Notes: generated by a model not told the origin, from the letters alone. A DNA stretch of 64,000 nt from an uncultured bacterium (GCA_937889595.1 CALAOR010000064.1:62001-126000); one strand, 5' to 3'. Positions 7,464 through 24,058 are shown, counted from the stretch's first letter. Program-made: numbers and translations.

Positions 7464-7577
7464 AATATTTTACGGCAATATTATTTTTGGTGTTAACCCT
7501 TTTACAGCGTCCATTTCCCGTTATAAATAAGCCATATCCGTATTAATTAAAATAAAACAGCTTCACATACAAAATCA

Positions 7578-7640: not shown

Positions 7641-7648
7641 AGGAACTT

Positions 7649-8626: not shown

Positions 8627-8639
8627 ACCGGAGGCTTTT

Positions 8640-10046
8640 TTGATAAAAATTCAATTTTTCGGAGCGGCAAGGGAAGTAACCGGTTCGATGCATGTCCTTG
8701 AAAAAGACGGATACAGGCTGCTGGTGGACTGCGGAATGATACAGGGGAAAAGAAAGGAATCATATGACCGCAACAGGAACATAGCTTTTCCGGCGTATGA
8801 CATAAATGCCATGATATTGACGCACGCCCATATAGACCACAGCGGTAATATCCCCACCCTTATTAAACAGGGTTTTAAGGGAAATGTTTACTGCTCGCAT
8901 GCCACCAGGGATTTATGCGAATTGATGCTTCCTGATTCCGCTTATGTGCAGCTAAAGGACCTGGAATACGTCAATAAAAAGCGTTTAAAGCAGGGCAAGA
9001 CATTATTTGAGCCGTTATATTCGCTAGAGGAGGCTGAAGCCTCGCTTAATTTCTTTGTGACCAAGAATCTGGGCGAGAAAATATCATTCAGGGAGGATAT
9101 TACCGGTTATCTTCTTAACGCGGGGCATATATTGGGATCCACTATGGCTGTAATAAAATTACAGGAAAAAGACAGGGAAGTAAAAATAGGTTTTACGGGT
9201 GACTTAGGGCGAAAAAGCCTGCCAATACTCGCGGACCCGGACCAGATAAGGGATGTGGATTATCTTGTGGTTGAATCAACTTATGGGGGCCGCGACCACA
9301 AACCCATAGCCACGGCATATTCCAGGCTGTCTTCCATAGTAACTGATACATATAACAAGGGCGGCAAGATAATAATACCGGTTTTTGCAGTGGAGCGGGC
9401 CCAGGAAGTCCTGTATGTATTAAATAAACTTTTTCTGTCGGGAAAAATCCCGGCAATGCCTGTTTTCGTTGATTCGCCGCTTACCGTGAAAGTTACCGAA
9501 GTATTTAACAGGCACGCGGAGTGTTTTGACAAGGACATGCTCAAGTTCATAGCTGATAATAACGACCCGTTTCACCTTGGTCTTGTGAAATACACGGCCA
9601 GCGTGGATGAATCAAAAGCTATCAATGATTATGAAAAACCCTGTATTATATTATCCGCGACAGGCATGTGCGAAGCGGGACGGATACTCCACCACCTGAA
9701 GAATAATATCGGAAACCCGAAGAATACCATATTAATCGTGGGATACCAGGCTGTCAATACCCTGGGACGCCGTCTTGTTGAAGGCGACAAGATCGTCAAG
9801 ATATTCGGCGATTCATACAATGTACAGGCGCAGGTTATCGTTATAAATGAATTTTCAGGCCACGCTGGCCAGAAAGAACTGATAAAGTTCATACAGGCTA
9901 CCGCGAAAATGAGCGAAGGCCGGTTAAAGAAAGTTTTTCTGGTACATGGCGAAGAGGGCCAGCAGGAGGAACTGATAAACGCTCTGCATGTCTGCGGAAT
10001 GCAGAATGTGGACAACCCCGGGCCGGGCGAGGAAGTTATCCTTTGA
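8640..10046 (+). CDS. MBL-fold beta-CASP ribonuclease/RNA-processing exonuclease family
   Basis: 468 residues starting at TTG (8640) after CCGGAGG. The metallo-beta-lactamase part holds THAHIDHSG (H-x-H-x-D-H metal site), GHILGS and FTGDLGR (metal-binding His and Asp). The beta-CASP insert and end contain ESTYGG, SPLTVKVTEVF and a C-terminal segment with NEFSGHAGQKEL, the beta-CASP His. This arrangement matches the Ysh1/CPSF73-like group (KH-less), known as RNA endo/exonucleases. No signal peptide. It overlaps ftsE by 4 nt (TTGA), so it is co-translated with the cell-division genes; no functional reason for that link is known to me. Confidence 0.88.
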   Translation: MIKIQFFGAAREVTGSMHVLEKDGYRLLVDCGMIQGKRKESYDRNRNIAFPAYDINAMILTHAHIDHSGNIPTLIKQGFKGNVYCSHATRDLCELMLPDSAYVQLKDLEYVNKKRLKQGKTLFEPLYSLEEAEASLNFFVTKNLGEKISFREDITGYLLNAGHILGSTMAVIKLQEKDREVKIGFTGDLGRKSLPILADPDQIRDVDYLVVESTYGGRDHKPIATAYSRLSSIVTDTYNKGGKIIIPVFAVERAQEVLYVLNKLFLSGKIPAMPVFVDSPLTVKVTEVFNRHAECFDKDMLKFIADNNDPFHLGLVKYTASVDESKAINDYEKPCIILSATGMCEAGRILHHLKNNIGNPKNTILIVGYQAVNTLGRRLVEGDKIVKIFGDSYNVQAQVIVINEFSGHAGQKELIKFIQATAKMSEGRLKKVFLVHGEEGQQEELINALHVCGMQNVDNPGPGEEVIL

Positions 10047-10699
10047 TAAAATTCAACCATGTTTACAAAGTATTTGAAAAGGATATCAAAGCTTTGGATG
10101 ATGTCTCCTTTTCCATAGAAAAAGGCGAGTTTATTTTCATAACCGGGCCTTCGGGCGCTGGTAAGACAACCGTATTTAACCTGCTATACAGGGAAGAAAC
10201 AGCCGATATGGGGACCATATTCGTCGAAGATACCGACATATCGCATCTGCATAATTCCAAGATACCTTTTTACAGAAGGCGTATAGGATTTGTTTTTCAG
10301 GATTTTAAGCTTTTATTTGACCGGTCGATATTTGAGAACATAGCCCTGCCTCTTGTAATTACCGGCGCGCCGCAGGAATTTATACGAAAAACGGTCACTG
10401 AGGCCATAAATAAAATAGGGCTTGCCGGCAGGGAAAATTTAAATCCATGGCACTTATCCGGCGGTGAAAAGCAAAAAACAGCAATCGCCCGCGCGACCAT
10501 ATTAAACCCTCCCTTTATCATGGCTGATGAACCTACCGGGAACCTGGACGAGGACAGTTCCTGGCAGATAATGAATATGTTTCAGGAACTTAATAAAAAA
10601 GGGACAACCATAATGATCGCGTCGCATAACAAGGAAATTACGGCGAAAATGGCAAAACGCGTGATAAGGCTCGAAGCGGGCTCTGTGGCGGCTGTATGA
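10043..10699 (+). CDS. ftsE: Cell-division ABC transporter ATPase FtsE
   Basis: 218 residues, full length, TTG start overlapping the previous stop. Walker A GPSGAGKTTVF, signature LSGGEKQK, Walker B FIMADEPTGNLD and the switch His in IASHNKEI are all present. FtsE partners FtsX (next gene, 4-nt overlap) at the septum and powers activation of peptidoglycan hydrolases through EnvC-type proteins (gene after that). Q-loop FVFQDFKLLFD is the one typical of FtsE/LolD-type ATPases. Confidence 0.93.
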   Translation: MIKFNHVYKVFEKDIKALDDVSFSIEKGEFIFITGPSGAGKTTVFNLLYREETADMGTIFVEDTDISHLHNSKIPFYRRRIGFVFQDFKLLFDRSIFENIALPLVITGAPQEFIRKTVTEAINKIGLAGRENLNPWHLSGGEKQKTAIARATILNPPFIMADEPTGNLDEDSSWQIMNMFQELNKKGTTIMIASHNKEITAKMAKRVIRLEAGSVAAV

Positions 10700-11574
10700 G
10701 GTGGTTAAGGGAAGTGTTCTTAAATTTCAGGCGAAGCGGTTTCATGAGCCTGATATCGATCGGAACCATAATACTCGCGGTAACGGCCCTGGGCGGTTAC
10801 TACCTGATAAACGAATCGATTATCTACACGGTAAAAAGAGTGCAGCAGAAAGTTGAAGTTGTTGTGTTCCTGCATGACGGCCTTGAAAAAGAAAAGATAG
10901 ACAATATAATAACCGAGGCGCAGTCATCGCTTTCCGTACAGGAAATAAAGTTCACGTCAAAAGAAGACGCATATAACGAGTTTTTAAAGGACCCTGATCT
11001 GGCCGAAATTATGAAAACTTTTGACGGCAACCCACTGCCCGACTCAATAAATGTAAAGCTAAAGGAATATTCAAAGGACAATATAAATAAAATAGTTAAG
11101 TTTTTTGACTCCAAGGAAGGCGTCGAGGACATTCAATACGGCGGCAACGAGATTGAAACACTGATCAACATCATTAATGTTGTTAAAATGATAGCCGGGG
11201 CCGCGGGTATAATATTCATTGTATCCGCGCTGCTTGTGGTGTCAAATATAATAAAACTGACCGTGTACGCGAGGCGGCAGGATATATATATATTCAGGAT
11301 GATTGGTGCCTCGGAATCGTTCATACGAATGCCGTTTATTACCGAGGGAATTGTCCATGGATTCATAGGTGGCCTGACAGGCTGGGGGCTGTTGTACGCA
11401 GTTATCAGTATTTTGATAAGCCAGATCAGGAAGGAAACCGGGATAGACCTGTCGGAATTTTATCTTTTTTCCCCCGACTTCTTTAATATCAAATTCATGC
11501 TTGCTTCCATAGGCACGGGTACCCTTTTGGGATTTACCGGAGCCTTATTCGCACAGGGGAGACTTTTCAAGTGA
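10696..11574 (+). CDS. ftsX: Cell-division permease-like protein FtsX
   Basis: 292 residues. First helix near 20-42, then a periplasmic domain of about 110 residues (FLHDGLEKEKIDNI ... KEGVEDIQYGG), then three helices near 160-182, 205-225 and 262-282: the four-helix FtsX topology. Overlaps ftsE and the EnvC-like gene by 4 nt at each end. It transmits FtsE ATP hydrolysis across the membrane to the hydrolase activator. The start has no strong ribosome site, as expected for coupling. Confidence 0.92.
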   Translation: MRWLREVFLNFRRSGFMSLISIGTIILAVTALGGYYLINESIIYTVKRVQQKVEVVVFLHDGLEKEKIDNIITEAQSSLSVQEIKFTSKEDAYNEFLKDPDLAEIMKTFDGNPLPDSINVKLKEYSKDNINKIVKFFDSKEGVEDIQYGGNEIETLINIINVVKMIAGAAGIIFIVSALLVVSNIIKLTVYARRQDIYIFRMIGASESFIRMPFITEGIVHGFIGGLTGWGLLYAVISILISQIRKETGIDLSEFYLFSPDFFNIKFMLASIGTGTLLGFTGALFAQGRLFK

Positions 11575-12776
11575 TGCAAAGGACGGCGCGCTGCCTGATG
11601 CTTTTGGCTTTTTTTTGGCCGCTTCAGGCAGGGCTGGCTTTTGACCTTAAGGCGGCTGTAATAAAGGAGGAAGTCAGGGACTATAAAACCAATCTTGACA
11701 AAACAAAGAACGACTTAACTTCGATCAAGGAAGCAATTAAGCTCCAGCGCGAAACAATACTGAAGGAAAAATTCCGCGAAAAAGCAACCACAAAATACAT
11801 ACAAAAAATCGACAAGGAACTGGATATAACACGGAAGGAACTTTCGGTATATAAGAATAATATAGTAGTGCTTCAAGCGGGTATTGGCGACCTGGATTCA
11901 AGGATAAAAGAAAACGAAAGAGAAAAAAAAAGCAGGGAAAAAGCCGTTATGTCTGCCTTAAGAAGGCAGTATGAGAAGCAGGATAAGACATACCTGAAGT
12001 TTTTGTTCAAATCCGGGGGCATATCGGATTTTATCAAAAGATATAAGTTTGTAAAAATACTCTCGCGCAAGAACGCAGAAGCCGTGGAACAGTACATGAT
12101 GCTTATGGAAAAACTTCAGTCTGACAAAGCTGCTATTTTGGATTACAAAAGCGAACTTGATTCCGTCAAAAAGGACAAGGAACTGCAGTGGAAACGCTTC
12201 AGGGATGAATCCTGGCAGAAAAGGGCCGTGCTTAAGGGCATACGATCAAATATAAAAGAACGCGGGAAAATGATCAAAGAACTTGAACTCTCGGCAAGAA
12301 AACTTACCAAACTGCTGGATACCATGGAAGCGTCGGTTGAACTGTCCGACAAGGATGCTGAAACGGCATTTTCGCAGAATAAGGGAAAATTTCCATGGCC
12401 GGTTGATTCGGGCAATATACTGGCAAAGTTCGGGAAATACAAACATCCGCAGTTCAAAACAATTGTGGAGAACCGGGGGCTGCACATAAGCGAAAGTTAC
12501 GGCGCGCCGGTTTATTCGATCTTTTCCGGCGTTGTTAAATACGCCGATTGGTTTGAGGGCTACGGGAAAATGATAGTCATATTCCACGGCGGCGGATATT
12601 ACAGCATCTACGCGCATCTTTCGGAAATAAACGAGTCCAAAGGCAGCCAGGTGGGTATAAAGCAGGTCATAGGCAGGGTCGGTGATACGGAGTCTTTTTA
12701 CGGAGATGAATTATATTTTGAACTGAGAAATAAGGGTACCCCTGTTGATCCGCTAAAATACCTGAAAAAAAGATAA
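11571..12776 (+). CDS. envC: EnvC-like murein hydrolase activator (coiled coil plus degenerate LytM domain)
   Basis: 401 residues. N-terminal signal peptide (LLAFFWPLQAGLAF), a long coiled coil (about 30-250, rich in K/E/L heptads), and a C-terminal M23/LytM domain (about 285-400). The domain keeps YSIYAHLSE, but the first metal site reads GLHISESYGAP rather than H-x-x-x-D and the last reads ELYFELR where active enzymes have H-x-H (HLHFE). Loss of metal ligands is the hallmark of EnvC-type activators, which bind FtsX and switch on amidases without cutting peptidoglycan. Operon order ftsE-ftsX-envC supports this. Confidence 0.9.
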   Translation: MMQRTARCLMLLAFFWPLQAGLAFDLKAAVIKEEVRDYKTNLDKTKNDLTSIKEAIKLQRETILKEKFREKATTKYIQKIDKELDITRKELSVYKNNIVVLQAGIGDLDSRIKENEREKKSREKAVMSALRRQYEKQDKTYLKFLFKSGGISDFIKRYKFVKILSRKNAEAVEQYMMLMEKLQSDKAAILDYKSELDSVKKDKELQWKRFRDESWQKRAVLKGIRSNIKERGKMIKELELSARKLTKLLDTMEASVELSDKDAETAFSQNKGKFPWPVDSGNILAKFGKYKHPQFKTIVENRGLHISESYGAPVYSIFSGVVKYADWFEGYGKMIVIFHGGGYYSIYAHLSEINESKGSQVGIKQVIGRVGDTESFYGDELYFELRNKGTPVDPLKYLKKR

Positions 12777-12811
12777 AATATGGAGGAAATAAGGTCCCTG
12801 CTTCAAACGCC

Positions 12812-13912
12812 CTATCTTTTGACTTTCATCAGTACGCCCAGGCCGATGAGCAGGAAAAACATGTTGGCCATCCAGGCCGCGAAAACCGGCGGCATAGCCC
12901 CGACCTTTCCCAATGAAAGACCTACGGTGACAAAACCCATATAAAAGAAGGATATTACTATGGTTGTAATGAATCCCAATGCCGCATTTAAGAAGCTCCT
13001 TGTGGTTGAGAACATGAACGGTATGGAGATGCCGAGTAACGCAAAAATGAAAGCGGCAAAAGGGAAGGCAAGCTTTAAGTTCATATTGGTTTCTTCTTCG
13101 CCCGCTGAAAATCCGCTTTCTTTCAGGAGTTTTATAAGTTTATTGAGCCTGAATATGTTTACCGTCAGGGTGTCTTCCGGGCTTTTTCTTCTGACCACGA
13201 AGTCTTCAGGCGCGTCCTTTACCTCAAGCGTGTATAAAGGTGATTTTTCTATACCGGTCTCAATGTTGTTGGAAAATTTACGGTGGACCGCGTCTTTTAA
13301 CAGCCATTTATCCTTGTCCCATGTACCTTCCCTGGCGTCAAGGCGTTCAGTTATATTGAAATTATTATCAATAGTAAGTATACAAACACCCCGCATTAAT
13401 CCAATCAACCCGTCGAAATACTTTATGTAAAACACCTTGCCTCCGGACGAAAGTTTTGCCAGGTCCTGGCGTATTTCAGTGGATGTATTGCCGTTCTTTT
13501 CTATGAGCACATTCTTTATATAGTTGGCTTTCTCGTATGAACTGGAAACAACTGTTTCGTTAAATACAATGGTGAACAGGCTCACAACAAGGGCGAATGC
13601 GAGGATGGGTTTTATCAGGGAAAAAAAATCGATGCCCGCTGATTTCATGGCGTTTAATTCATTGGTCCTGTTTAACTGGCTGAAAACATACAATATGGAA
13701 AGAAGTATGGAGAAAGGAAGCGCTTCAGTGGCTAAAAAAGGAAGCTTGCAGACAAAGTAATTAATAACAAGCAAAAGCGGGGGCTTGTGGCTCAGCATGA
13801 CGGGGGTTTCGTCAATCAGGTTCGAGATCAGTATGAATAATACTATGGCCGAGATAATCAGGAAAAATGATTTGATAATTTCATTAAGTATATACCTGTA
13901 AAGTATTTTCAT
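12812..13912 (-). CDS. lptG: LptF/LptG-family lipopolysaccharide export permease, downstream copy
   Basis: 366 residues, YjgP/YjgQ family. N-terminal helices near 13-33 and 60-82 plus about 100-122, a periplasmic beta-jellyroll-like middle (about 130-260), and three C-terminal helices from about 275. It pairs with the next gene upstream on this strand (4-nt overlap) to form the LptFG core that, with LptB2C, extracts LPS from the inner membrane. Called LptG from gene order only (second after lptF, as in E. coli). Convergent with envC, with 35 nt between and no obvious terminator. Confidence 0.85.
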   Translation of the reverse strand: MKILYRYILNEIIKSFFLIISAIVLFILISNLIDETPVMLSHKPPLLLVINYFVCKLPFLATEALPFSILLSILYVFSQLNRTNELNAMKSAGIDFFSLIKPILAFALVVSLFTIVFNETVVSSSYEKANYIKNVLIEKNGNTSTEIRQDLAKLSSGGKVFYIKYFDGLIGLMRGVCILTIDNNFNITERLDAREGTWDKDKWLLKDAVHRKFSNNIETGIEKSPLYTLEVKDAPEDFVVRRKSPEDTLTVNIFRLNKLIKLLKESGFSAGEEETNMNLKLAFPFAAFIFALLGISIPFMFSTTRSFLNAALGFITTIVISFFYMGFVTVGLSLGKVGAMPPVFAAWMANMFFLLIGLGVLMKVKR

Positions 13913-15057
13913 CCCAGGGATACCTTCTTTTTAAAATATGGTCTTATTGCCATGAAAACAAGAAGCAGCAGCCCAAAGCCGACCAGGAATATATTGGGCA
14001 GCCAGACAGCCAGAAAATAATTCCACTGTCCCTTGTACCCGTAATTTTGCCCGGTCGATAACAGCACGTAGTATATGAATATGAGCACCAGGGAAAAGGC
14101 GATGCCGCCTATACGTCCGCCTTTTTTTGTCATCAGCCCGAGCGGTATGCCGACTATGGCAAAAGCGATGACCGCGAATGGTATGGAAAATTTTTTATGA
14201 AATTCAATGAAAAGCCAGTTTTTGTCATGCTTGCTTTCTTTGCCTTTTTTTATTTCTGCGGCGATCTCTTCGCCTGTCATTTCCCGGGTGCCTTTTATGT
14301 CATCCGGTTCGTTCCTGTTCTTAAACAGGCCCTTTATGTCAAGGTCGACATAGTTCGTATTATAAAAGATCTGGCTTAATTTGTCCGGGTCCGCGTATGA
14401 ACCAAGCTGTATGATGCCGTTTTTAAGCTTCAAAGCGAGCCTGTAGCTTTTATCGTCGTTGATTATTTCCCCTTCGCGGGATAAGATAACTTTAGCCGGG
14501 GTGTCGGGGCTGGTATTGTCCTTGACAAAAACTATCACATTTTTAAGCAGGTCGTTTTTGCTGTCCTTGTCGCCTATATAAAACACATAATCGTCAAAAC
14601 TATTGATGAAAACATGTTTCTGGATCAGCATTCCCGAGCGTTTCTGGATAATGTCATAATATATTTTTTTGTAAGTCAGGTTGGCGGCGGGCAGTACGTA
14701 ATTATTGAACAATATCATTATTATTGTCACAAAAACAGCGAGGTATATGGAAGGCAGCACTATTGATCTTACGCTGATGCCCGAGGCCTGCATGCCGTGG
14801 TATTCGTTGTCCTGCACTATCCTGGAATAGGTGAGCAGGATGCCCACTAAAAAAGCCATGGGTACCGTGACTGCGACTGTGGAAGGCAGCAGCAATATAA
14901 GCAGCTGTCCGACCTTGAAAAGGCTGACCCCGTACTCTATGACAAGGTCGCTCATGACAAAAAGGGAGTTCATTATAAGAAAGAAAGTAAAAATGAAAAA
15001 ACTAATCAATGACACCATGGATACTTCCTTGATTATACTTTTATTAAGGATCTTCAT
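13909..15057 (-). CDS. lptF: LptF/LptG-family lipopolysaccharide export permease, upstream copy
   Basis: 382 residues, same fold as its downstream neighbour: helices near 13-35, 55-78 and 98-120, a periplasmic domain with VILSREGEIINDDKSYRL, then C-terminal helices with FSIPFAVIAFAIVGIPLGL, a strongly conserved family stretch. The pair is translationally coupled. Presence of LptFG implies an outer membrane with LPS or a similar glycolipid. The 108-nt spacer upstream holds the tandem repeat G. The LptF/LptG split is by order, not by sequence. Confidence 0.87.
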   Translation of the reverse strand: MKILNKSIIKEVSMVSLISFFIFTFFLIMNSLFVMSDLVIEYGVSLFKVGQLLILLLPSTVAVTVPMAFLVGILLTYSRIVQDNEYHGMQASGISVRSIVLPSIYLAVFVTIIMILFNNYVLPAANLTYKKIYYDIIQKRSGMLIQKHVFINSFDDYVFYIGDKDSKNDLLKNVIVFVKDNTSPDTPAKVILSREGEIINDDKSYRLALKLKNGIIQLGSYADPDKLSQIFYNTNYVDLDIKGLFKNRNEPDDIKGTREMTGEEIAAEIKKGKESKHDKNWLFIEFHKKFSIPFAVIAFAIVGIPLGLMTKKGGRIGGIAFSLVLIFIYYVLLSTGQNYGYKGQWNYFLAVWLPNIFLVGFGLLLLVFMAIRPYFKKKVSLG

Positions 15058-15108
15058 TTTAATTTTATTCCTTTTTTTATCCGGTTCCGCCCGAATGAAA
15101 GACGCGGC

Positions 15109-15165
15109 CCCCGCCGAAGCTTTAGCGAAGGAGGGGCACCCCGCCGAAGCCTTGGCGAAGGAGGG
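15109..15165. repeat. Tandem GCCGAAGC-type hairpin repeat (family G)
   Basis: Two adjacent units, 15109-15136 and 15139-15165, each of the form CCCCGCCGAAGC, TTTA or CTTG, then GCGAAGGAGGGG. Each can fold by CCCC/GGGG and GC/GC pairing. They fill the gap between lptF and the glycosyltransferase. Near-identical short units occur, as I recall, in spacers of many environmental bacterial genomes. Confidence 0.8.
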
Positions 15166-16614
15166 TTATTTTAACCCTTCAAAATAGTCCATATAATATT
15201 TTCTCATGCTTATGCCCGGTATTGCAACATCAATTTCTTTGGTGAAAATCCGGGTCTTGAAAAATTCCGCCATTTCCCAGCTCTCCCATGGTTCAGAGTA
15301 AACAAACAGACAGTTAAAGCCATGCAGTTTTTCATAGCCGGTCCAGAACCTGTAATTTTTGTTTGACTCGTGTTTGATAAGAATATAAAATTCCGGCTGT
15401 TTTGGCATGTAAAAACCGAGCAGGCTTGACATCTGGTAATGCCGTGAAGAAAGAAAAGTCCTGTCTTTCGCGGGAAGCCTTTGGTACTCGGCGTCAACCC
15501 CGGCAGCGAGTTCTTTAAAACCGTAGGTTTTTTTCAGAGGATTGTATTTTTCGGGAATAATAAAAATCGGGTTGACTGCCTGGATAAATGCAAAGATAAT
15601 TATCAGCATGCCCGACAATATGACAGCGGGAGAAACAACGTTGAAAATGCGTGTTTTTAACGACGAGAGATAGCCGGTTGCCAGGAAGAAAAGGGGCAGG
15701 AAGGTAAAAGCCGGCCAGTTGGCCTCAACCCTGTTTTTTAAGCTAAGTATGAAGAACGGAATGATTGTGACCCAGAAAAGGGTGGCAAAAGCAAAATCTA
15801 AATTAAACGCGGGTTTTTTTATGTTTTTAATGAAAACCGGGATGAAAAGAATAAATAACATCGGCGAGATAAGTCCGGCCTGCGATCCTAACAGCTCGAT
15901 AAAAAATTTAAGCGTAAAGCCGGATTGTGAGCCGCCGCGGATGAACAGGTACTTGACAGTCGCAAAGTCATGGACAAAATTCCAGTATATATAAGGTAGC
16001 GTAAGAAGAACGGTGAAAAGGGTAAAAAAAATGAAACCCTTCAGGTACTTTTTAAAAGTCCCTGTCAAAAGGAGAAATGTCGCCACCCCAAGATACACGG
16101 TTCCCATGGTCAGTTTTGACATTATGCCAAGGCCGAGTAAAATGCCGGCGTGCCCCCAGTGTATGTTGTTTTCCGGTTCTTCTATGATATAAGTCAGGCT
16201 ATAAAGGAATAAAGCGTAAAAGAAGACCATGACAGTGTCGTGCATCATTAAAACCGAACCAATCGCATAGATTAGCGATGAGTTCATTAAAAGCGTGTTT
16301 AAAAGGTTCTCTTTGTCAGCCGTGTCGGAGGGTTTAAATCTTTTATATGTGAAATACGCCGTGATCATGGTTGCAAGAGATAATAGCACTGCTCCAAGCC
16401 GTATGGTGAATACGGTGTTTATTTTAGTGAAAAATGTAAAGATCCAGATGACCAGTGCCGTCATGGGCCCCTGTTCATAATAGCCCCAGTCAAGATGCCT
16501 GGCCCACTGCCAGTAATAAGCCTCATCCCCGAGCAGAGGGAGATAATTGATATATATGAGGCGGATCAGCGTAATTATGCCAATAATGATAAAAATCAGG
16601 TGCTTGTTTTTCAT
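15166..16614 (-). CDS. GT39-type polyprenol-phosphate-sugar glycosyltransferase (ArnT/PMT-like membrane protein)
   Basis: 482 residues with about 10-11 hydrophobic segments. The first luminal loop has LPLLGDEAYYWQWARHLDWGY: the D-E and following Tyr/Trp pattern is the glycosyltransferase family 39 signature (dolichyl/undecaprenyl-phosphate-sugar users such as ArnT). Further LMMHDTVMVFFYALFLY is typical too. AAGGAGGACC precedes ATG. Such enzymes add a sugar or aminoarabinose-like group to lipid A, proteins or glycans; the acceptor cannot be told. Transcribed toward lptF, consistent with an envelope role. Confidence 0.85.
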   Translation of the reverse strand: MKNKHLIFIIIGIITLIRLIYINYLPLLGDEAYYWQWARHLDWGYYEQGPMTALVIWIFTFFTKINTVFTIRLGAVLLSLATMITAYFTYKRFKPSDTADKENLLNTLLMNSSLIYAIGSVLMMHDTVMVFFYALFLYSLTYIIEEPENNIHWGHAGILLGLGIMSKLTMGTVYLGVATFLLLTGTFKKYLKGFIFFTLFTVLLTLPYIYWNFVHDFATVKYLFIRGGSQSGFTLKFFIELLGSQAGLISPMLFILFIPVFIKNIKKPAFNLDFAFATLFWVTIIPFFILSLKNRVEANWPAFTFLPLFFLATGYLSSLKTRIFNVVSPAVILSGMLIIIFAFIQAVNPIFIIPEKYNPLKKTYGFKELAAGVDAEYQRLPAKDRTFLSSRHYQMSSLLGFYMPKQPEFYILIKHESNKNYRFWTGYEKLHGFNCLFVYSEPWESWEMAEFFKTRIFTKEIDVAIPGISMRKYYMDYFEGLK

Positions 16615-16642
16615 GGTCCTCCTTGAGTAATATGATACATAT

Positions 16643-16671
16643 AATATAAAACATTAATGGCTTATGGACAA
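16643..16671 (-). promoter_or_regulatory. Sigma70-type promoter of the GT39 gene
   Basis: Read on the minus strand: TTGTCC, 17-nt spacer, TATATT, ending 28 nt before the start codon. Both boxes match 4-5 of 6 consensus bases and the spacing is ideal. Confidence 0.6.
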
Positions 16672-16720
16672 GGGAAATTTAGGGGGGCAGAGGGGATAGA
16701 TTATACACTGCCTGAAAAGT

Positions 16721-16925
16721 CCTTAATGATAGGTCGCGTCCGGTGCGGATGAAATTTTTCTATGGATTGTGCGCTTGTATTATAAGGGTTTTAGTGGCGC
16801 ACAGGCCATAGAAAAATTTCATCCGCACCGGACACGATAAAGAATTTCATGGATTTATGGGGTTTTCCGGCAGCATTATTTATCAGTGTTAATACATTTT
16901 TCATGCAACTTTAATGGCCCTGCAA
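16721..16925. repeat. Structured repeat A, copy 1 (long covarying hairpin)
   Basis: The core 16735-16836 is a 31-bp stem with one mismatch (left arm ends TTTTTCTATGG, right arm begins CCATAGAAAAA) around a 40-nt middle that has its own 7-bp stem TGTGCGC/GCGCACA. Copy 2 is at 21481. The lead-in CCTTAATGATAGGTCG and the unpaired loop TATTATAAGGGTTTTAG are conserved between copies. Trailing fragments (TTTTCCG, CATGCAAC) are also shared, so the unit may reach about 16925. Lies in a 608-nt gene-free divergent spacer. Confidence 0.9.
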
Positions 16926-17036
16926 TGTCCAATATAACGTAGAGGTTCTTAAATAGTTAAAAAAATGTGAAGATTCACGAAATAAAGATAACCCGGCCTT
17001 AAGCAAGCCGGATATTGTTCTTTGTGCTATTTCCCT

Positions 17037-17067
17037 AAAAAAGCCCCTCAAAAAGAGGGGCTTTTTT
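17037..17067 (+). terminator. Bidirectional intrinsic terminator without an obvious upstream gene
   Basis: Stem GCCCCTC/GAGGGGC with an AAAAA loop, flanked by six A on the left and six T on the right, so it works on either strand. It sits between divergent genes, where neither neighbour needs termination. Confidence 0.85.
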
Positions 17068-17070
17068 ATA

Positions 17071-17115
17071 GGTCAAAACATTAAGATAGTAGAAAGCAGA
17101 GAGTAGTGGGTCAAA
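17071..17115. repeat. Stutter repeat H, copy 1
   Basis: GGTCAAAACATTAAGATAGT then AGAAAGCAGAGAGTAGTGGG. Related copies at 51326, 51575 and 55414 share GTCAAAACATT and runs of AGTAGA/GAGTAG. Confidence 0.7.
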
Positions 17116-17206
17116 TACAAGAAAAGCCGGGTAGTGGCGGCATATTATGCCGCCACCGGGGGAAACGTGAAGTTGGTTAATTATTTGTGGAAATTTATAC
17201 GATTTA

Positions 17207-17215
17207 TGCTATCAT
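17207..17215 (+). promoter_or_regulatory. Extended -10 promoter of the DEAD-box helicase gene, possibly leaderless
   Basis: TGCTATCAT is an extended -10 (TGn plus a 5/6 hexamer). Its end is 8 nt before ATG at 17223, where transcription would be expected to begin, and no ribosome-binding site precedes that ATG. A -35 (TTGTGG at 17185) is poorly spaced. Confidence 0.45.
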
Positions 17216-17222
17216 ATATCAC

Positions 17223-18425
17223 ATGACAAACACAGAAAACAATTTTTATGGCCTGGGGATTGCGCCGGGCTTGATCGAAGTAATAGAAAAACTTAAGTTT
17301 ACAACTCCTACGCCCATACAGCTTAAGGCTATACCCATAGGCATAGAGGGCAAGGACATCATAGGCATAGCGCAGACCGGCACGGGTAAGACGCTTGCTT
17401 TTGGCATTCCTTTGGTCCAGCGCTTGGCGCTTACTACAAAGGGAAAAGGGCTTATAATCGTCCCCACCAGGGAACTGGCCGTACAGGTCAATGAAACCAT
17501 CATGAAACTCGCGCCTGCCGGCGGAATGAAAACAGCGGTTTTAATAGGCGGGGAATCCATGTATAATCAGATCAATGATTTAAAAGCCAACCCGCGCATA
17601 TTAATCGCGACACCCGGGCGTCTTTTGGATCATATTGAAAGACGTACGGCCAGGATAGATGATGCATGCATACTTATTCTTGATGAAGCCGACAGGATGC
17701 TTGATATGGGTTTCATGCCGCAGATAAACCGCATACTCAGGATGATACCCAAGGAAAGGCAAACCATGTTATTTTCAGCGACCATGCCTTCAAGCATAGT
17801 TTCAATCGCGTCAAACCACATGAAGCTTCCGGTCAGGACGGAAATTGCCCCTCAGGGAACAGCATCTGATCTGGTATCGCAGGAAGTTTTGGTTGTGAAA
17901 AAGGAACTCAAGGCAACGGTTCTACTTGAACTTTTAAAGAAACACACGGGGTCGATACTTTTATTCACAAGGACAAAAAGAGGCGCGCATAAAGTTGCAC
18001 AGGCTTTAAGGAACGCCAATCACAGGGCGGCGGAAATACACTCGGACCGCACCATGGCCCAGCGCAAGGAAGCACTGGCTGGTTTTAAATCGGGAAAACA
18101 CAGGATACTTGTGGCAACAGACATAGCCGCAAGGGGTATAGATGTAACCGGTATAGAGGTGGTTATTAATTATGACCTGCCTGATGACCCTGAAAATTAC
18201 GTCCACCGTATCGGCCGCACAGGCAGGGCCGGTCTAAAAGGGCATGCCATATCGCTCGCAACGCCTGACCAGCGCAGCGATTTGAAAAGCATAGAAAACA
18301 TCATAAGGACAGCGATTCCCATATCCACACCCGAGAATCTTCCGATTGCAAAGTTTGATGCCGCATTGCCGGCGTTTTCAACGGGAAGAAATTCCAGGGG
18401 CAGGGGCCGCGGTTATAGGGTTTAA
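17223..18425 (+). CDS. DEAD-box ATP-dependent RNA helicase (RhlE-like)
   Basis: The track start (GTG 17187) lies upstream of the likely promoter; ATG 17223 gives 400 residues. Motifs in order: Q-motif region TTPTPIQLKAIP, Walker A AQTGTGKT, PTRELAVQ, TPGRLLD, DEAD box LDEADRMLD, SAT, then the second RecA domain with ARGIDVTGIEVV and HRIGRTGRAG. A short Arg/Gly tail (SRGRGRGYRV) probably helps RNA binding. These enzymes unwind short RNA duplexes in ribosome assembly or RNA decay. RhlE is the closest pattern, but assignment among RhlE/CshA/DeaD is not certain. Confidence 0.9.
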   Translation: MTNTENNFYGLGIAPGLIEVIEKLKFTTPTPIQLKAIPIGIEGKDIIGIAQTGTGKTLAFGIPLVQRLALTTKGKGLIIVPTRELAVQVNETIMKLAPAGGMKTAVLIGGESMYNQINDLKANPRILIATPGRLLDHIERRTARIDDACILILDEADRMLDMGFMPQINRILRMIPKERQTMLFSATMPSSIVSIASNHMKLPVRTEIAPQGTASDLVSQEVLVVKKELKATVLLELLKKHTGSILLFTRTKRGAHKVAQALRNANHRAAEIHSDRTMAQRKEALAGFKSGKHRILVATDIAARGIDVTGIEVVINYDLPDDPENYVHRIGRTGRAGLKGHAISLATPDQRSDLKSIENIIRTAIPISTPENLPIAKFDAALPAFSTGRNSRGRGRGYRV

Positions 18426-18554
18426 ATTGCCATAAGTCGCATGGCAAAAGGGACGGTTTAAAATTCGGCGCGGAACGATTCAGGCACAAAGTCACAGATT
18501 GCAAACCTAAAAATCCGGCTGGAAAACAAAATTTTATCTTACGGAGGCATCGTT

Positions 18555-19016
18555 ATGAAGAATTATGTTAAAAATGTTTTAATTTTAGCGTTGTTTCTTT
18601 TTGCTTTGGGCGGATCCATGCTGCATATGTATATTCATCCGATCGCAAAACACTCATATGGCTGGGTTCCGCTTATATCCACGGTTGTCAGTGTCGTGGT
18701 TATACCTTTGTTGTTCATGTTCCGCAAAACAATTCACTGGGCTTACATTCTTAACGGTTTTACGGCAATTGTCGGCGTGATAACTATGGCGCACTTTTCA
18801 ATTGTAAAGTCCCCGATAATCCCGGACATTCTGGTGCTTTTAGCCAAGCTGTATGTGGGCCGCGCGATTTTTTGCGTTGAAATCTTCCAGATGGAAACCG
18901 AAGCTTTTAAACCGACTTTGCTCCAATACATCCGCTACCCGCATATGGGTTTTTGGTACGCGCACTTTATACTGCTTTCCCTTGTGTATTTCCTCGGGAA
19001 TTTATTGTGGAGGTAA
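18555..19016 (+). CDS. Hypothetical four-helix membrane protein
   Basis: 153 residues with hydrophobic segments near 6-27, 38-58, 66-88 and 130-150 and short loops. ACGGAGGCATCGTT precedes ATG. Histidines sit near several membrane edges (HMYIHP, HWAYI, HFSIV, HMGFWYAH), which could bind heme or metal, but no family is recognised. A 32-residue membrane ORF follows 5 nt later, suggesting a two-component membrane unit. Confidence 0.75.
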   Translation: MKNYVKNVLILALFLFALGGSMLHMYIHPIAKHSYGWVPLISTVVSVVVIPLLFMFRKTIHWAYILNGFTAIVGVITMAHFSIVKSPIIPDILVLLAKLYVGRAIFCVEIFQMETEAFKPTLLQYIRYPHMGFWYAHFILLSLVYFLGNLLWR

Positions 19017-19021
19017 GATAA

Positions 19022-19120
19022 ATGGACAAATTTAAATTTTTAAAGCCGTTGTGGTTTGTATTGCACATAATTACGATACCTTTTATGTTCTGGCTGGGGC
19101 ATATAGTTAAGTTTAAATGA
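19022..19120 (+). CDS. Small single-helix membrane protein, 32 aa (below track cutoff)
   Basis: ATG follows the previous stop by 5 nt, with GGAGGTAAGATAA (partly the end of the upstream gene) as ribosome site. Sequence: a basic start MDKFKFLKP, a hydrophobic helix with LWFVLHIITIPFMFWLGHIV and a KFK end. Good spacing, basic ends and a His-containing helix like its neighbour argue for a real small protein, but the length alone allows chance. Confidence 0.5.
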   Translation: MDKFKFLKPLWFVLHIITIPFMFWLGHIVKFK

Positions 19121-19189
19121 CCTTTTCCGCATTAGCAAAGTACTAGCGCAAATCTTACCCTATTCTATTTCCAGGCTTATTAACGCGTC

Positions 19190-19218
19190 TTGTTAAATAC
19201 CCCTGTATTGTATATAAT
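19190..19218 (+). promoter_or_regulatory. Sigma70-type promoter of the GH44 gene
   Basis: TTGTTA, 17-nt spacer, perfect TATAAT. Transcription should begin near 19225, about 7 nt before ATG 19232. The overlap with the track's TTG start at 19190 shows that start is wrong. Confidence 0.75.
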
Positions 19219-19231
19219 ATTAACGGAACAC

Positions 19232-21391
19232 ATGTCTGCGTATATTGTCCAATATTTGCGGCGTTTAAAGCCCGCGTTGAGGTGCTGTTTGAAACGGATA
19301 GTATTCGCAACCACAGTCATCATAGTGATTGCTGCTTCAACTTACGCGGCGACCATCACAATTAATACAAATAATACCCGTTTGGCGATAAGCCCATACA
19401 TATATGGGACAAACCAGCAGATGGAAGGCGATGAGAACCTGACTATTATGCGTTTGGGCGGCAATCGTATGACCGCGTATAACTGGGAAAATAACGCTTC
19501 AAACGCCGGTTCTGACTGGTACCAGTCAAGCGACGATTATATGTGCACAGCCATTGAATATCCGCTGTCCGCCACTGAATGCGCGTCTTCCTCGTCAGGC
19601 GTGGTCGATCATTTTGTGGAATACAGTTTAATTCATGGATACAAGTCCATAGTAACCCTGCCCATGGCAGGTTATGTGGCGGCGGACAAGGCCGGAGATG
19701 TCCTCGCGGCCGATACAGCGCCTTCAGCCAGATGGAAGGTACAGGTTCCAAAAAAGGGCAGCGCGTTCCAGTACCCGCCTGACACAACTGATAATTACGT
19801 TTATGACGACGAGGAAGTGTCGCACCTGGTACAGAAATACGGCAATGCAGTTTCAGGCGGGGTTAAGATATACCAGCTTGATAATGAAGGCGATATATGG
19901 AATGCGACACATCCCCTGGTGCATCCCGCGCTTACCGGAGCTGCTGAATGGGTGACGAGAGGTACGGCCCTGTCAAAAGCCATAAAGGACGTGGATGGGA
20001 CTGCGGAAGTATTCGGCCCTGTATTTTTCGGTATCTGGTCCATGTTAAGCCAGGGAAATGACTGGAATGTGGTCAAAGGCAGCCATCAGTGGTATGCTGA
20101 GTATTATCTCGACCAGATGAAACAGGCAAGCATTGCTGACGGCAGGCGGCTTTTGGACGCTATAGATATTCATTATTATTCCGAGGCAAGGGAAGGGCTT
20201 TACCCGCCATTTACATATTCTGTGCCTACGCCCACGCCGGCGCCGTGCAGGATAACTGAAGGCGGCTGCACCTCGGTTCTGGCCCAGCAGGCAAGGCTTC
20301 AGGCTCCAAGGTCTCTTTGGGACCCTGCTTTTACCGAAAACAGCTCTGTAGGGCAGTGGTGCGGCGTGGCCCTGCCGCTTATACCAAAGGTCCAGGCGGC
20401 GATTGATACATATTATCCCGGGACTAAAATAGCGTTCACCGAGCACGCGTTCGGCGGTGGAAACGATTTTTCCGGCGGTATTGCAACTGCGGACTCACTG
20501 GGCATTTACGGGAAATACGGGGTATATGTCGCGACGTTATGGAAGACCGATTATGGGTTGTTTCACTCAGCCGCGTATAAACTGTACAGGAATTATAACG
20601 GAACTTTCGGTACTTACGGGGACACCAAAGTTTACTGCGAATCAAACGACATACCGAACATGACAACGTACGCATCCATAAGCTCGACGGACGATTCCGT
20701 TGTCCATATAATTATTTTGAACAAAGCGGCTGCCGCGCAGACGGCAAATGTAAATATAACAAGCCCGCAGGCGTATACCACGGGCGAAGCATGGGCTTTT
20801 GGAGGCGCGGCTTCCGCAATCACGCTGAGGTCCGCCCCTGTTATCTCCGGAAATTCGTTTTCATATTCTGTGCCGGCGTATTCGGCATTTCACTTTGTTT
20901 TAAAGGCCGGCGCAACCCCGGCCAATACGCCAAGCCGGACAGCCACGCCGACTGAAACAAGCGCATTTACATCCACAACAACGCCGACTGCAACCGGGTC
21001 TATCACAGGCACTCCGCCGACTGAAACAATTACGCCTGCAAATACGCCGACTCCGACACCAACACCCATACCTTCCGTTACGGAACCTGTTTATGGCCCG
21101 GAAATAGTTTATCCAAATCCGTTCAACCCTGACGGCATATATGATCTGCAGTTTGGCATTAACGTGGCAGCAGGCACGTCCAGCGTGAAATTATTGATCT
21201 ATACGATGGGGTTCAGGCTGATTAAGTCCATAGAACTCGGAGCAAGCATGCCCGGATTGGTAATAAAACCTGTAAGCCGGACTTATCTGCAGGGCCTCTC
21301 CGAAGGCATGTATTTATATGTAATAAAACAAGTTAATGCTTCCGGAGATGAGACAAAAAGCAGGATAAAAAAGTTTATAATAATAAAGTGA
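19232..21391 (+). CDS. Secreted GH44 endoglucanase/xyloglucanase with Thr/Pro linker and C-terminal sorting-like domain
   Basis: 719 residues from ATG 19232, with a long basic signal peptide ending near ASTYAA. The catalytic part (about 40-555) carries LGGNRMTAYNWENNASNAG, a glycoside hydrolase family 44 hallmark. Candidate acid/base is Glu219 (YQLDNEGDIW) and nucleophile Glu404 (FTEHAFGG). GH44 cuts beta-1,4-glucans such as xyloglucan and carboxymethylcellulose. A Thr/Pro linker (PTPTPTP) leads to a C-terminal beta domain starting VYPNPFNPDG, the pattern of Por-type/FlgD-like secretion or surface-anchoring tails. Followed by hairpins D and repeat A2, then a sigma factor gene. Confidence 0.9.
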   Translation: MSAYIVQYLRRLKPALRCCLKRIVFATTVIIVIAASTYAATITINTNNTRLAISPYIYGTNQQMEGDENLTIMRLGGNRMTAYNWENNASNAGSDWYQSSDDYMCTAIEYPLSATECASSSSGVVDHFVEYSLIHGYKSIVTLPMAGYVAADKAGDVLAADTAPSARWKVQVPKKGSAFQYPPDTTDNYVYDDEEVSHLVQKYGNAVSGGVKIYQLDNEGDIWNATHPLVHPALTGAAEWVTRGTALSKAIKDVDGTAEVFGPVFFGIWSMLSQGNDWNVVKGSHQWYAEYYLDQMKQASIADGRRLLDAIDIHYYSEAREGLYPPFTYSVPTPTPAPCRITEGGCTSVLAQQARLQAPRSLWDPAFTENSSVGQWCGVALPLIPKVQAAIDTYYPGTKIAFTEHAFGGGNDFSGGIATADSLGIYGKYGVYVATLWKTDYGLFHSAAYKLYRNYNGTFGTYGDTKVYCESNDIPNMTTYASISSTDDSVVHIIILNKAAAAQTANVNITSPQAYTTGEAWAFGGAASAITLRSAPVISGNSFSYSVPAYSAFHFVLKAGATPANTPSRTATPTETSAFTSTTTPTATGSITGTPPTETITPANTPTPTPTPIPSVTEPVYGPEIVYPNPFNPDGIYDLQFGINVAAGTSSVKLLIYTMGFRLIKSIELGASMPGLVIKPVSRTYLQGLSEGMYLYVIKQVNASGDETKSRIKKFIIIK

Positions 21392-21404
21392 TACTGCCGG
21401 AAAA

Positions 21405-21480
21405 CATGCAATGTACCTTGAGCTACTGCGAATGGTACATTGCATGCCATGTACCTGAGCTACTGCGAATGGTACATGGC
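21405..21480. repeat. Two adjacent hairpins with a shared loop (family D)
   Basis: Hairpin 1 (21406-21445) pairs ATGCAATGTACC with GGTACATTGCAT; hairpin 2 (21446-21480) pairs GCCATGTACC with GGTACATGGC. The loops are the same, TGAGCTACTGCGAAT (one extra T in the first). The A-T pair of the first is a C-G pair in the second, a compensatory difference. They begin 14 nt after the GH44 stop and lack a T-run. Confidence 0.9.
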
Positions 21481-21715
21481 CTTAATGATAGGTCGTGTCC
21501 GGCACAGGTCAAATTTTTCTATGGATTGGCCGCCCGGTATTATAAGGGTTTTAGTGGCGCCAGGCCATAGAAAAATTTGACCTGCACCGGACACGAAAGG
21601 AAACACGTCATATTAATGAGGGATTTTCCGACAGTATCAAAGCAGGCAGTTAAATGCCGGGTTCCGGCATAGAGCGCATATCCTGACAATATCCTAAATT
21701 CATGCAACCTTTTTA
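21481..21715. repeat. Structured repeat A, copy 2
   Basis: Core 21494-21595 is again 102 nt with 31-nt arms (TTTTTCTATGG / CCATAGAAAAA) and a 40-nt middle containing the same loop TATTATAAGGGTTTTAG. Relative to copy 1, three stem positions changed on both arms so that pairing is kept and two changed on one arm only. The start abuts hairpin D2. Together with D it fills the 387-nt spacer before the sigma factor gene, with the rest showing only a GCC-rich fragment and the promoter below. Confidence 0.9.
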
Positions 21716-21733
21716 TGCAGTCATGCATTATAA
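21703..21733 (+). promoter_or_regulatory. Candidate ECF-sigma-type promoter of the sigma factor gene
   Basis: TGCAACC followed by TTTTT, 17 nt after it ATTATAA. TGCAACC/TTTT resembles -35 boxes of ECF sigma regulons (AAC core). A second TGCAACC-TTTT with ATTCTAA at 16-nt spacing lies at 22347, before the partner gene. Autoregulation is inferred. The same stretch also contains TATAAT (21729-21734), so a sigma70 reading remains possible. Confidence 0.4.
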
Positions 21734-21778
21734 TATTGGAGTCAGATTCAAGTATAAAACAAGGATGGGAGACTGTAT

Positions 21779-22411
21779 TTGGATAAAGACGCTGAAAAAG
21801 TAATGGTAGAAGAGGCCAGAAAAGATCCGGCTGCTTTTGGCAGGATATTTGAGGCCTATTACCAAAAGATACTCAGTTATTCCATATACCGCACCATGAA
21901 CGTGGAGATCGCCAGGGACATCACATCCGAAACATTTTTTAAAGCCCTTAAGAACCTTTGGCAGTTCAAATGGACCCTTGCCCCGTTTTCTTCCTGGCTT
22001 TACCGCATAGCCTCCAATGAAATAAAGATGTATTTCAGGCACCGCAAATATGAGCCGAAATCCATGGAGGAAGCCATAGAAGAGAATAATATGCCTGAAT
22101 TAGCCTCCCGTAAAGATCTTGAGAAAGAGGTTATGCAGGCGCAGGAGAAACTCGACGAAAACGGTGACCTGGCAAAGGTCATGCGGACGCTAAGGGAACT
22201 CCCGGAGAAATACCAGGAAGTTATAATGTTCAGGTTTTACGGTGAAATGAAAATAGAGGAGATAGCGGAAACACTTAACAAAAAGAAAGGCACTATAAAA
22301 TCTATCCTTTCAAGGGGAATGAAAATGCTAAAGGAAAGGTCAGCCATGCAACCTTTTCCTGGCACAGGCATTCTAAATATGAAAGAGCAAATGGAAGTGG
22401 AGGTAAAGTGA
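21779..22411 (+). CDS. ECF-type RNA polymerase sigma factor
   Basis: 210 residues from TTG 21779 (GGATGGGAG upstream); ATG 21803 is an alternative. Region 2: FGRIFEAYYQKILSYSIY and ARDITSETFFKALKNLWQF (the D-x-x-x-E/D-x-F helix for -10 recognition). Region 4: LPEKYQEVIMFRFYGEMKIEEIAETLNKKKGTIKSILSRGMKML, a clear helix-turn-helix for the -35. There is no region 1.1 or 3, as in ECF sigmas. The linker between regions 2 and 4 is long (about 60 residues, charged). The next gene starts 1 nt after the stop and has the layout of a membrane-bound anti-sigma. Confidence 0.9.
   Translation: MDKDAEKVMVEEARKDPAAFGRIFEAYYQKILSYSIYRTMNVEIARDITSETFFKALKNLWQFKWTLAPFSSWLYRIASNEIKMYFRHRKYEPKSMEEAIEENNMPELASRKDLEKEVMQAQEKLDENGDLAKVMRTLRELPEKYQEVIMFRFYGEMKIEEIAETLNKKKGTIKSILSRGMKMLKERSAMQPFPGTGILNMKEQMEVEVK
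22347..22376 (+). promoter_or_regulatory. Second TGCAACC promoter-like motif inside the sigma gene 3' end
   Basis: TGCAACCTTTT, then ATTCTAA at 16-nt spacing, 37 nt before the anti-sigma-like ORF. Coding constraint (residues AMQPFPG) may explain it, so confidence is low. Confidence 0.25.
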
Positions 22412-22412
22412 C

Positions 22413-23222
22413 ATGGAAGACAAACTGAAAAAAGTTAAAGAGATTGAGCTTCCAAAGAACAAAGAATTTTTAAAGTCGATAATTATGGCCCAAACAGCCA
22501 AAAATGCCGCCAAAACTGCGCGGCTTTCTTTTAATATGAAGTTTATTCCGGTTTTTGCGGCGGTTATCGCGATCGCAGCCGTGGGGCTGTACATGAAGGT
22601 TGATTATAATAATTCGAATTCGCAGCGTAATGAGCTTGGCGGAATATGGTGCACTTATGATGACCGTGCAACGGGAGGCACCTCCAGCGTCTGGCCGCCG
22701 GCATCCACATCGTGCGAGAACCTTTTCGTAAAAAGCGCGCCGGGTTACGGCGGCAGGGGCTATGCCGTGCGGATCACGGGTACGGCAGGAACATCCACGG
22801 GGTCAGATTATATTGGCGTGAATACTTTTTTAAGCGAGTATTCATCATGCCCCCACTGCAACGGCATAGATATAAGGAAATTCCACGGCATTGAGTTCAA
22901 AATAAAGGGATCGGTTACAGCGGGAAAAGTTATGTTCATAATTCCGCATGAAGGAAAGGCGGCGGATAAAAATCTGAACACATGTGGCAGCCTGACTGAT
23001 TATGCTGATTATGAATCTGATATAACAAAGACGATCACCGCGGACTGGAAAACAGTGCGGCTCGATTTTAAGAAGGATTTCAAACAGCCTGTATGGGCTA
23101 AAAAAGAGAACCTGGTAAGTATTGATGAAGTATTGGCTGACGCGAACCTGATCAAGTGGCAGTACAAGGAAGGCAGGGGGCGCCAGGTGGATATATGGAT
23201 AGATGACCTGCAGTTGTTTTAA
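22413..23222 (+). CDS. Membrane-anchored protein with extracytoplasmic carbohydrate-binding-like domain (putative anti-sigma factor)
   Basis: 269 residues, GGAGGTAAAGTGAC before ATG, 1 nt after the sigma stop. Residues 1-42 are a short, charged cytoplasmic part; 44-62 is one helix (FIPVFAAVIAIAAVGLYM); about 75-269 is a beta-rich outside domain. That domain has the features of CBM11/CIA30-type galactose-binding-like folds (GGIWCTYDDRATGG ... VDIWIDDLQLF), with four Cys that could form disulfides. The layout sigma gene, then inside-helix-outside sensor is that of anti-sigma pairs, and the RsgI proteins of cellulolytic clostridia use the same logic (with SigI, not ECF). No known anti-sigma (ASD/ZAS) motif is seen, so the role is inferred. 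Confidence 0.65.
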   Translation: MEDKLKKVKEIELPKNKEFLKSIIMAQTAKNAAKTARLSFNMKFIPVFAAVIAIAAVGLYMKVDYNNSNSQRNELGGIWCTYDDRATGGTSSVWPPASTSCENLFVKSAPGYGGRGYAVRITGTAGTSTGSDYIGVNTFLSEYSSCPHCNGIDIRKFHGIEFKIKGSVTAGKVMFIIPHEGKAADKNLNTCGSLTDYADYESDITKTITADWKTVRLDFKKDFKQPVWAKKENLVSIDEVLADANLIKWQYKEGRGRQVDIWIDDLQLF

Positions 23223-23252
23223 GTGGAATTAAATCTGAAGAGGAGGTGTTTT

Positions 23253-23921
23253 ATGAAAAAGTTCTTGATTGCGGCAGTAGCGGTAGTTGTGGCGGCGGCG
23301 CTTGTATTCGCGGCAGCTGAAAAATTTGTAGTGGATGATTTTACAGGAGGCAAGGCACAGGCATCATCGGGCGGATGGTGGTACACCTACAATGATGTAA
23401 ATACGGGCGGCAACTCGGAAGTGACGCCGGCGCCGGACAAGTTTGTAATGGCAAAGTCGGTCAATAAATTCGCGGCCAGGATGCAGGGCAAGGTCGGAAA
23501 TAAGCTCGGATGGGATTATGTCGGACTTGGAGTGACCCTGGGTGAAAATTGCGGATGCCCGGGCAAGGCAGAACCGGTCGATTTAAGCAAATTCACCACA
23601 CTTACGCTAAGGATCAAAGGCACCATATCGGGAGGCAGGCTTATCGTTAACCTCCCTTATTCGGACAGCAAATGCGAAAATAACAAGACAAACACGCTTA
23701 CGGAGTGGGCCGATTATGAGATGGCGCTGAATACCAAGCTTACAAAGGACTGGACAACGGTTAAGATCGACTTAAGAAATGATTTTAAGCAGCCGAAATG
23801 GGCAAAAACAATTGTCCCGATCGAAAAAGTCCTTCAGAACGCGCACAACATTAATTTTCATTTTTCAAGTCCTGACGGAGATACAGTTGATTTCCAGGTT
23901 GATACGATAGAGTTTAATTAA
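23253..23921 (+). CDS. Secreted protein with a CBM11/CIA30-like domain, paralogue of the preceding sensor
   Basis: The track starts at GTG 23223; ATG 23253 is better because AAGAGGAGGTGTTTT precedes it and it opens a clean signal peptide ending at FAAAE. 222 residues. The whole mature part is one domain matching the outer domain of the previous protein: GGWWYTYNDVNTGGNSEV, LTLRIKGTISGGRL, NDFKQPKWAK versus its counterpart KDFKQPVWAK. Domain-only secreted proteins of this kind could bind glycan and present it to, or compete with, the membrane sensor. No enzyme motif. Ends before a strong terminator, so it is the last gene of the unit. Confidence 0.8.
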   Translation: MKKFLIAAVAVVVAAALVFAAAEKFVVDDFTGGKAQASSGGWWYTYNDVNTGGNSEVTPAPDKFVMAKSVNKFAARMQGKVGNKLGWDYVGLGVTLGENCGCPGKAEPVDLSKFTTLTLRIKGTISGGRLIVNLPYSDSKCENNKTNTLTEWADYEMALNTKLTKDWTTVKIDLRNDFKQPKWAKTIVPIEKVLQNAHNINFHFSSPDGDTVDFQVDTIEFN

Positions 23922-23935
23922 TAAGCTTCATTAAT

Positions 23936-23968
23936 AAAAAGCCCGGCTTGTAAAAGCCGGGCTTTTTA
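23936..23968 (+). terminator. Intrinsic terminator after the sigma/CBM unit
   Basis: Stem GCCCGGCTT/AAGCCGGGC with a GTAA loop, five A before and TTTTTATT after. Confidence 0.92.
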
Positions 23969-24058
23969 TTATTCATTTTTACCGCAACTTTCCCGTGTTT
24001 AAGCTGTCTTAAATTCAGGGACAGTAAGGTTTTAGGCAGGAAAGCCGGAGGTTTGATA

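Follow-up and report, generated by a model that had tools for sequence, protein, structure and literature searches.

The window analyzed here, i.e., the whole 64 kb stretch of DNA, belongs to contig C64 of a 3.4 Mb MAG of candidate division FCPU426 (Goldbacteria), and the nearest named relative of this source genome is also a candidate division FCPU426 MAG. The group is probably cellulose-degrading, and a genome sorted on cellulose, with three active GH9-type cellulases, has been reported within Goldbacteria (PMC7031533). At window positions 21779-23921, a triad of genes encodes an ECF sigma factor, then a membrane protein that crosses the membrane once, and finally a secreted protein that copies the outer domain of the latter; an intrinsic terminator comes next (Table 1). 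The original prediction, made from the sequence alone, had described precisely such a block, and its description is borne out: the sensor gene starts one base past the sigma stop, the outer domains of the second and third products are 33-34% identical and their shared motifs are real, and an 18-pair stem closes the block. For the secreted copy, the true start is most likely the ATG at 23253 and not the GTG at 23223 of the listed open reading frame, since GAGGAGG lies just ahead of the former and a signal peptide follows it. The block was further said to sit right behind a secreted GH44 glucanase. A GH44 gene is indeed located upstream, but it is not part of this unit: a gap of 387 nt containing a palindromic repeat of ~100 bp sets it apart from the sigma gene. 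This repeat, whose arms read GTCCGGTGCAGGTCAAATTTTTCTATGG, is MITE- or REP-like and has a variant copy at window positions 16738-16833; with ≤3 mismatches allowed, its arms matched 17 times, spread over about ten genomic sites, and the reversed control gave none.

Table 1. Features of the triad and its upstream region (window coordinates)
Feature	Position	Strand	Basis
Secreted GH44 glucanase, C-terminal sorting-like domain	19190..21391	+	PF12891 5.8e-62
Dispersed palindromic repeat between GH44 and sigma gene	21497..21592	.	arm matches genome-wide
ECF-type promoter GCAACCTTTTTATGCAGTCATGCATTATA 5' of sigma gene, predicted autoregulation	21704..21732	+	PWM 27.3
ECF sigma factor (type A), 210 aa, TTG start	21779..22411	+	Pfam Sigma70_r2, r4_2
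Second promoter copy, within sigma gene 3' end, 5' of sensor	22347..22376	+	PWM 22.7
Single-pass membrane sensor, putative anti-sigma factor	22413..23222	+	kept in 10 genomes; AF2 model
Secreted soluble copy of sensor outer domain: signal peptide, without cytoplasmic part	23253..23921	+	Pfam CIA30 3.9e-7; AF2 model
Intrinsic terminator, end of triad	23932..23971	+	18-pair stem then T run

The sigma product comprises Sigma-70 regions 2 and 4 only, without regions 1 and 3, which places it among ECF factors (Pfam Sigma70_r2 at residues 24-90, 1.5e-10, and r4_2 at 133-184, 2.7e-14), and it matches the NCBIfam sigma70-ECF family above the family cut-off. The membrane protein is laid out as an inside segment (residues 1-42), a single hydrophobic stretch (42-63, mean hydropathy 2.1) with the helix placed at about 43-61, and an outer CBM11/CIA30-like domain (75-269). 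Searches against Pfam and NCBIfam returned no family match for this protein and no recognized anti-sigma domain, class I ASD included, in residues 1-42.

In whole-genome searches, the sensor outer domain and the secreted copy find each other at E about 1e-34, and AF2 models of both have CBM11, CIA30/NDUFAF1, and CBM30 as their top PDB matches. For the sensor, CBM11 (1v0a) came first (E 4e-6, probability 1.00), with 6r3m and 7zkq also matched, and for the secreted copy NDUFAF1/CIA30 (7zkq, 5e-7) came first and CBM11 (1v0a, 1e-6) second. The models were built from four sequences each, with mean pLDDT values of 54 (sensor) and 62 (copy) and values of 70-90 in parts of the beta domain; confidence this low affects the assignment to a family less than the structural detail. 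When PDB sequences were searched with a profile of the sensor alignment, no CBM and nothing useful came back. As modeled, then, the outer domain is a carbohydrate-binding-module fold of the CBM11/CIA30 beta-sandwich type, in agreement with what had been proposed for both products. Because the lineage is probably diderm, as judged from an outer-membrane beta-barrel-type protein (L184, weak Pfam match), the sensor may see periplasmic oligosaccharides rather than the intact polymer. Separately, sensor-type outer domains are repeated in giant predicted surface proteins (G000:C35:10730-12706 and G001:C138:2972-7138, where G000 is the source genome; open frames of 1683 and 2165 aa).

Of 41 genomes searched, 10 have the full-length sensor, all of them from the same order; elsewhere in the phylum among these, single domains only were matched, and four members of the order are without the module. 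The proposed pairing of an ECF sigma with this sensor is recovered in 10 genomes of the order, across which it is kept in two forms. Type A, i.e., the triad, occurs in 9 genomes, with the secreted copy after the sensor in 9/9 loci and no fixed neighbors, as flanking genes vary between genera. Type B consists of a sigma, a sensor, and a secreted hydrolase-like protein, without a secreted copy of the sensor domain. Its third gene encodes, in 10/10 genomes, a secreted protein whose C-terminal part is hydrolase-like (GH53, 7e-4 by Pfam; PDB match 'Cellulase' 3fw6/3ii1, 2e-6). Type B synteny is largely fixed, behind genes for DNA polymerase I, CoaE, HDOD, GAF-HD, and two GAF-GGDEF proteins, a setting that suggests a possible cyclic-di-GMP link. 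The type B locus of the source genome lies at L055 1-8036 (G000:C64:17000-25036). Type A and type B sigmas are mutual closest paralogues in the genome (48% identity), which encodes four further ECF-like sigmas at 24-30% identity. Lipoprotein paralogues in two genomes (G006 and G011; L064, L065) were considered as a third sensor type and rejected, as they bear lipoprotein-type signals and have no cytoplasmic tail and no adjoining sigma.

The fold and its distribution also bear on what is sensed. The sigma/anti-sigma switch and a cellulase regulon could both be real while the outer domain senses a polysaccharide of the cell's own envelope, some protein partner, or stress on the envelope, given that NDUFAF1/CIA30, an assembly factor that binds protein, is among the fold matches, that CIA30-type domains also serve as protein-binding folds, and that giant surface proteins of the lineage contain the domain too, so that it may serve cell-surface attachment. 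We consider this unlikely, as a hydrolase-like secreted gene stands directly behind the sensor in every type B locus (10/10) and the identifiable predicted targets described below are mostly secreted plant-polysaccharide hydrolases.

Sigma and sensor genes share an ECF-type promoter, GCAAC-N15-17-CRTTATA. It is present 5' of 9/9 type A sigma genes that have upstream sequence, eight of which, aligned by position, have GCAACYTTTT-N-CRTTATAA in common, while the ninth (G002:C76, L139) came from a pattern search; with an AAC-type -35 and a CGT-type -10, these sites would fit the autoregulated promoters typical of ECF sigma genes. A PWM trained on the eight type A sigma-gene sites only places a site 49-93 nt upstream of 19/19 sensors of types A and B, with scores of 15-25 versus a background (true sites included) with a median of 1.5 and a 99th percentile of 11.7. 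The two best PWM sites in the whole 64 kb window are those 5' of the sigma and of the sensor (Table 1), the latter having been left out of the training. This second site encodes the QPFPGTGIL tail of the sigma, and in many loci the sensor promoter likewise lies inside the end of the sigma gene and codes for the conserved QP tail. Other loci have a sigma gene that stops sooner; there the site is intergenic, past the stop codon, and the protein has no QP tail. Loss of the tail with retention of the site indicates that selection acts on the DNA, not on the peptide.

Beyond these loci, the loose pattern GCAACN{15,17}CRTTATA gave 78 matches in 14 genomes versus 19 for its reverse, with 19 of the 78 at sigma or sensor genes and 59 elsewhere; outside sigma/sensor loci in module-bearing genomes, the counts were 53 against 14. 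Among the 59, 21 fall ≤150 nt upstream of a signal-peptide protein, a class assigned by hand from the match listing, versus 1/19 in the reversed control (Fisher p=0.009). The strict pattern, counted outside module loci, occurs 8 times in 26 Mb of module-bearing genomes versus once in 85 Mb of others (p 7e-5). For the loose pattern with module sites removed, module-bearing genomes did not differ significantly from the four members of the order that lack the module (p=0.12). Many motif matches are inside genes or ahead of unrelated genes, and one (G000:C68:14180, L155) was discarded as a false positive within CRISPR-like repeats containing GAGTTGCAACT.

Predicted targets identified by Pfam include GH9 proteins with CelD_N (source genome C32 and G007; L157, L077), GH44 proteins (G009 and, with a longer leader, source genome C57; L156, L187), CBM4 proteins with weak hydrolase similarity (G005 and others; L125, L070), a GH5-like protein (G004; L112), and F5/8C proteins with weak arabinofuranosidase similarity (source genome C75). 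A secreted N-acylglucosamine (GlcNAc) 2-epimerase-type protein is encoded 36 nt past a motif in G003 (L134; G003:C4:41317). In G009 (L094), the type A sigma gene has a divergent neighbor whose product resembles the latter. On contig C32 of the source genome, a cellulase locus (L184, G000:C32:66500-86000, 7458-19500) runs GH9, GH5-CBM9, GH9, LacI, GH9, GH5, with motifs 5' of the first GH9 (G000:C32:73957) and 5' of LacI, and the sister genome (L189) has much the same order as far as its contig reaches, minus the third GH9. The same promoter before the pair and before cellulase genes suggests that this pair detects polysaccharides of plants and switches on the enzymes degrading them, and its presence at sigma, sensor, and scattered cellulase genes lends real support to a sigma controlled by a glycan sensor.

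On a different reading of the promoter data, the sigma would require the sensor for its activity, which would give the sensor a dual role like that of FecR, or else a different ECF sigma would recognize the motif. The sensor tail has no anti-sigma signature, the four other ECF-like sigmas are available as readers, and a promoter of its own is odd for a pure inhibitor, all of which would suit such an arrangement. We nevertheless judge it distinctly improbable, as every module-bearing genome has the motif at its sigma/sensor genes, and the genomes of the phylum that lack the module have almost none.

As to the neighboring glucanase, the original prediction had the sigma drive the adjoining GH44 gene as well as itself, and the position of GH44 just upstream, together with motifs at a 62%-identical relative in G009 and at a second GH44 in the source genome, would favor such a local circuit. 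The window GH44 itself is without the ECF motif: the best upstream scores were 3.8 and 5.6 (two PWMs) versus 15-27 at the sigma/sensor sites. It has instead a sigma-70-like TTGTTA-N17-TATAAT at 19190-19218, although TTGTTA/TATAAT-type matches are no commoner there than in shuffled sequence and are thus weak evidence alone. Nor is the adjacency kept, since a different gene stands beside the sigma in the sister genome and in other genera. The gene upstream of the sigma in the sister genome (L045:1-1251) was examined as a truncated GH44 and rejected, as only the C-terminal sorting-like domain is common to the two; being cut by the contig end, it was compared over its remaining C-terminal part. 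With the missing motif, the sigma-70-like promoter, the unconserved adjacency, and the 387 nt and dispersed repeat in between, we reject the local sigma-to-GH44 circuit as very improbable indeed. The GH44 genes that carry the site, namely the relative in G009 (G009:C49), a genome of another family, and the second own-genome GH44 (G000:C57), make GH44-type enzymes predicted targets in the lineage, while the window copy, without a site, is not one.

Together, these observations are best read, at a probability of about 0.68, as an ECF sigma/anti-sigma switch in FCPU426 (Goldbacteria) that responds to glycans and governs plant-polysaccharide hydrolases, with the adjoining GH44 not among its predicted targets. 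The core of what had been proposed, an ECF sigma under the control of a glycan sensor, is supported by the CBM-type fold, the pair in 10 genomes, and the common promoter; the choice of the neighboring GH44 as target is not. In this switch, the membrane protein would hold the sigma via its short cytoplasmic tail (residues 1-42), and a glycan or oligosaccharide meeting the CBM11/CIA30-like outer domain would release it, probably because the sensor is then cleaved by proteases, as RsiV and RsgI are. The freed sigma and its type B paralogue would then transcribe from GCAAC-N15-17-CRTTATA promoters, as predicted from their conservation and genome-wide occurrence; we infer that these two sigmas, and not other ECF factors, are the readers. 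The predicted regulon takes in the sigma gene, the sensor via its own promoter in the end of the sigma gene (i.e., both positive and negative feedback), the secreted sensor-domain copy via the operon, and scattered secreted GH9, GH44, GH5-like, and CBM4-bearing genes. A separate sensor promoter implies that activation raises the inhibitor too, a built-in brake, and the soluble copy may compete for the ligand, carry it, or simply bind polysaccharide. More tentatively, and with the odds rather against it, the system may be a negative-feedback switch in which one embedded promoter induces both the sensor and a soluble copy acting as ligand competitor or deliverer, order-wide and with a hydrolase-linked paralogous pair on the same promoter.

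Gene regulation in FCPU426/Goldbacteria seems unstudied, and our literature search returned no paper naming both Goldbacteria and sigma factors. The present analysis supplies a pair of regulators, the sequence of a promoter, and a set of predicted target cellulases, all directly testable in a heterologous host.

Among known systems, sigma24C of Clostridium thermocellum is of the ECF type, and we know of no soluble sensor-domain copy for the sigma24C-Rsi24C pair. This pair joins a sigma to a membrane anti-sigma factor with an outer carbohydrate module for biomass sensing (PMC3990059, citing Bahari 2011 and Nataf 2010), and our pair resembles it in linking a sigma to a membrane protein with an outer carbohydrate-type module, although the Rsi24C module is GH5-like and C. 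thermocellum belongs to an unrelated phylum. SigI-RsgI pairs of cellulolytic clostridia (PMC4711584, PMC6056542) are similar in having an outer CBM on a membrane anti-sigma factor, a cellulase regulon, and several paralogous pairs; unlike the sigma here, SigI is not an ECF factor, and no RsgI family match was found in the triad with Pfam or NCBIfam. ECF52/ECF53 of Actinobacteria (PMC5826349, PMC10766802) also combine an ECF sigma with a membrane-spanning segment and a domain that either binds carbohydrate or is a glycosidase, but in one fused protein with a zinc-finger anti-sigma domain, whereas here there are two genes and no zinc finger. SigV-RsiV of Bacillus subtilis shares the ECF sigma, short cytoplasmic part, one helix, and outer domain; RsiV has ~36 cytoplasmic residues and a helix at 37-59, and its outer domain binds the inducer lysozyme directly, after which proteolysis follows (PMC4183432, PMC5014341). 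The RsiV outer domain is, however, DUF4163/DUF3298 and not CBM11/CIA30-like, and no AXA signal-peptidase site like that of RsiV was noticed in the sensor here. For our outer domain, the best fold matches are CBM11 of Lic26A-Cel5E and CIA30/NDUFAF1, at 9-18% identity in the fold alignments. The principle is covered by SigI-RsgI, sigma24C-Rsi24C, ECF52/53, and SigV-RsiV. A split ECF pair whose sensor is of the CBM11/CIA30 type and comes with a soluble copy was not found as a combination in the literature searched, but the original claim that it is undescribed goes too far, given the precedents of sigma24C-Rsi24C and of the ECF52/53 fusions with CBMs. The idea of a glycan-sensing anti-sigma factor, known from clostridia and actinobacteria, would be extended here to an ECF system of an unrelated candidate phylum, one in which the sensor is CBM11/CIA30-like and has a soluble counterpart.
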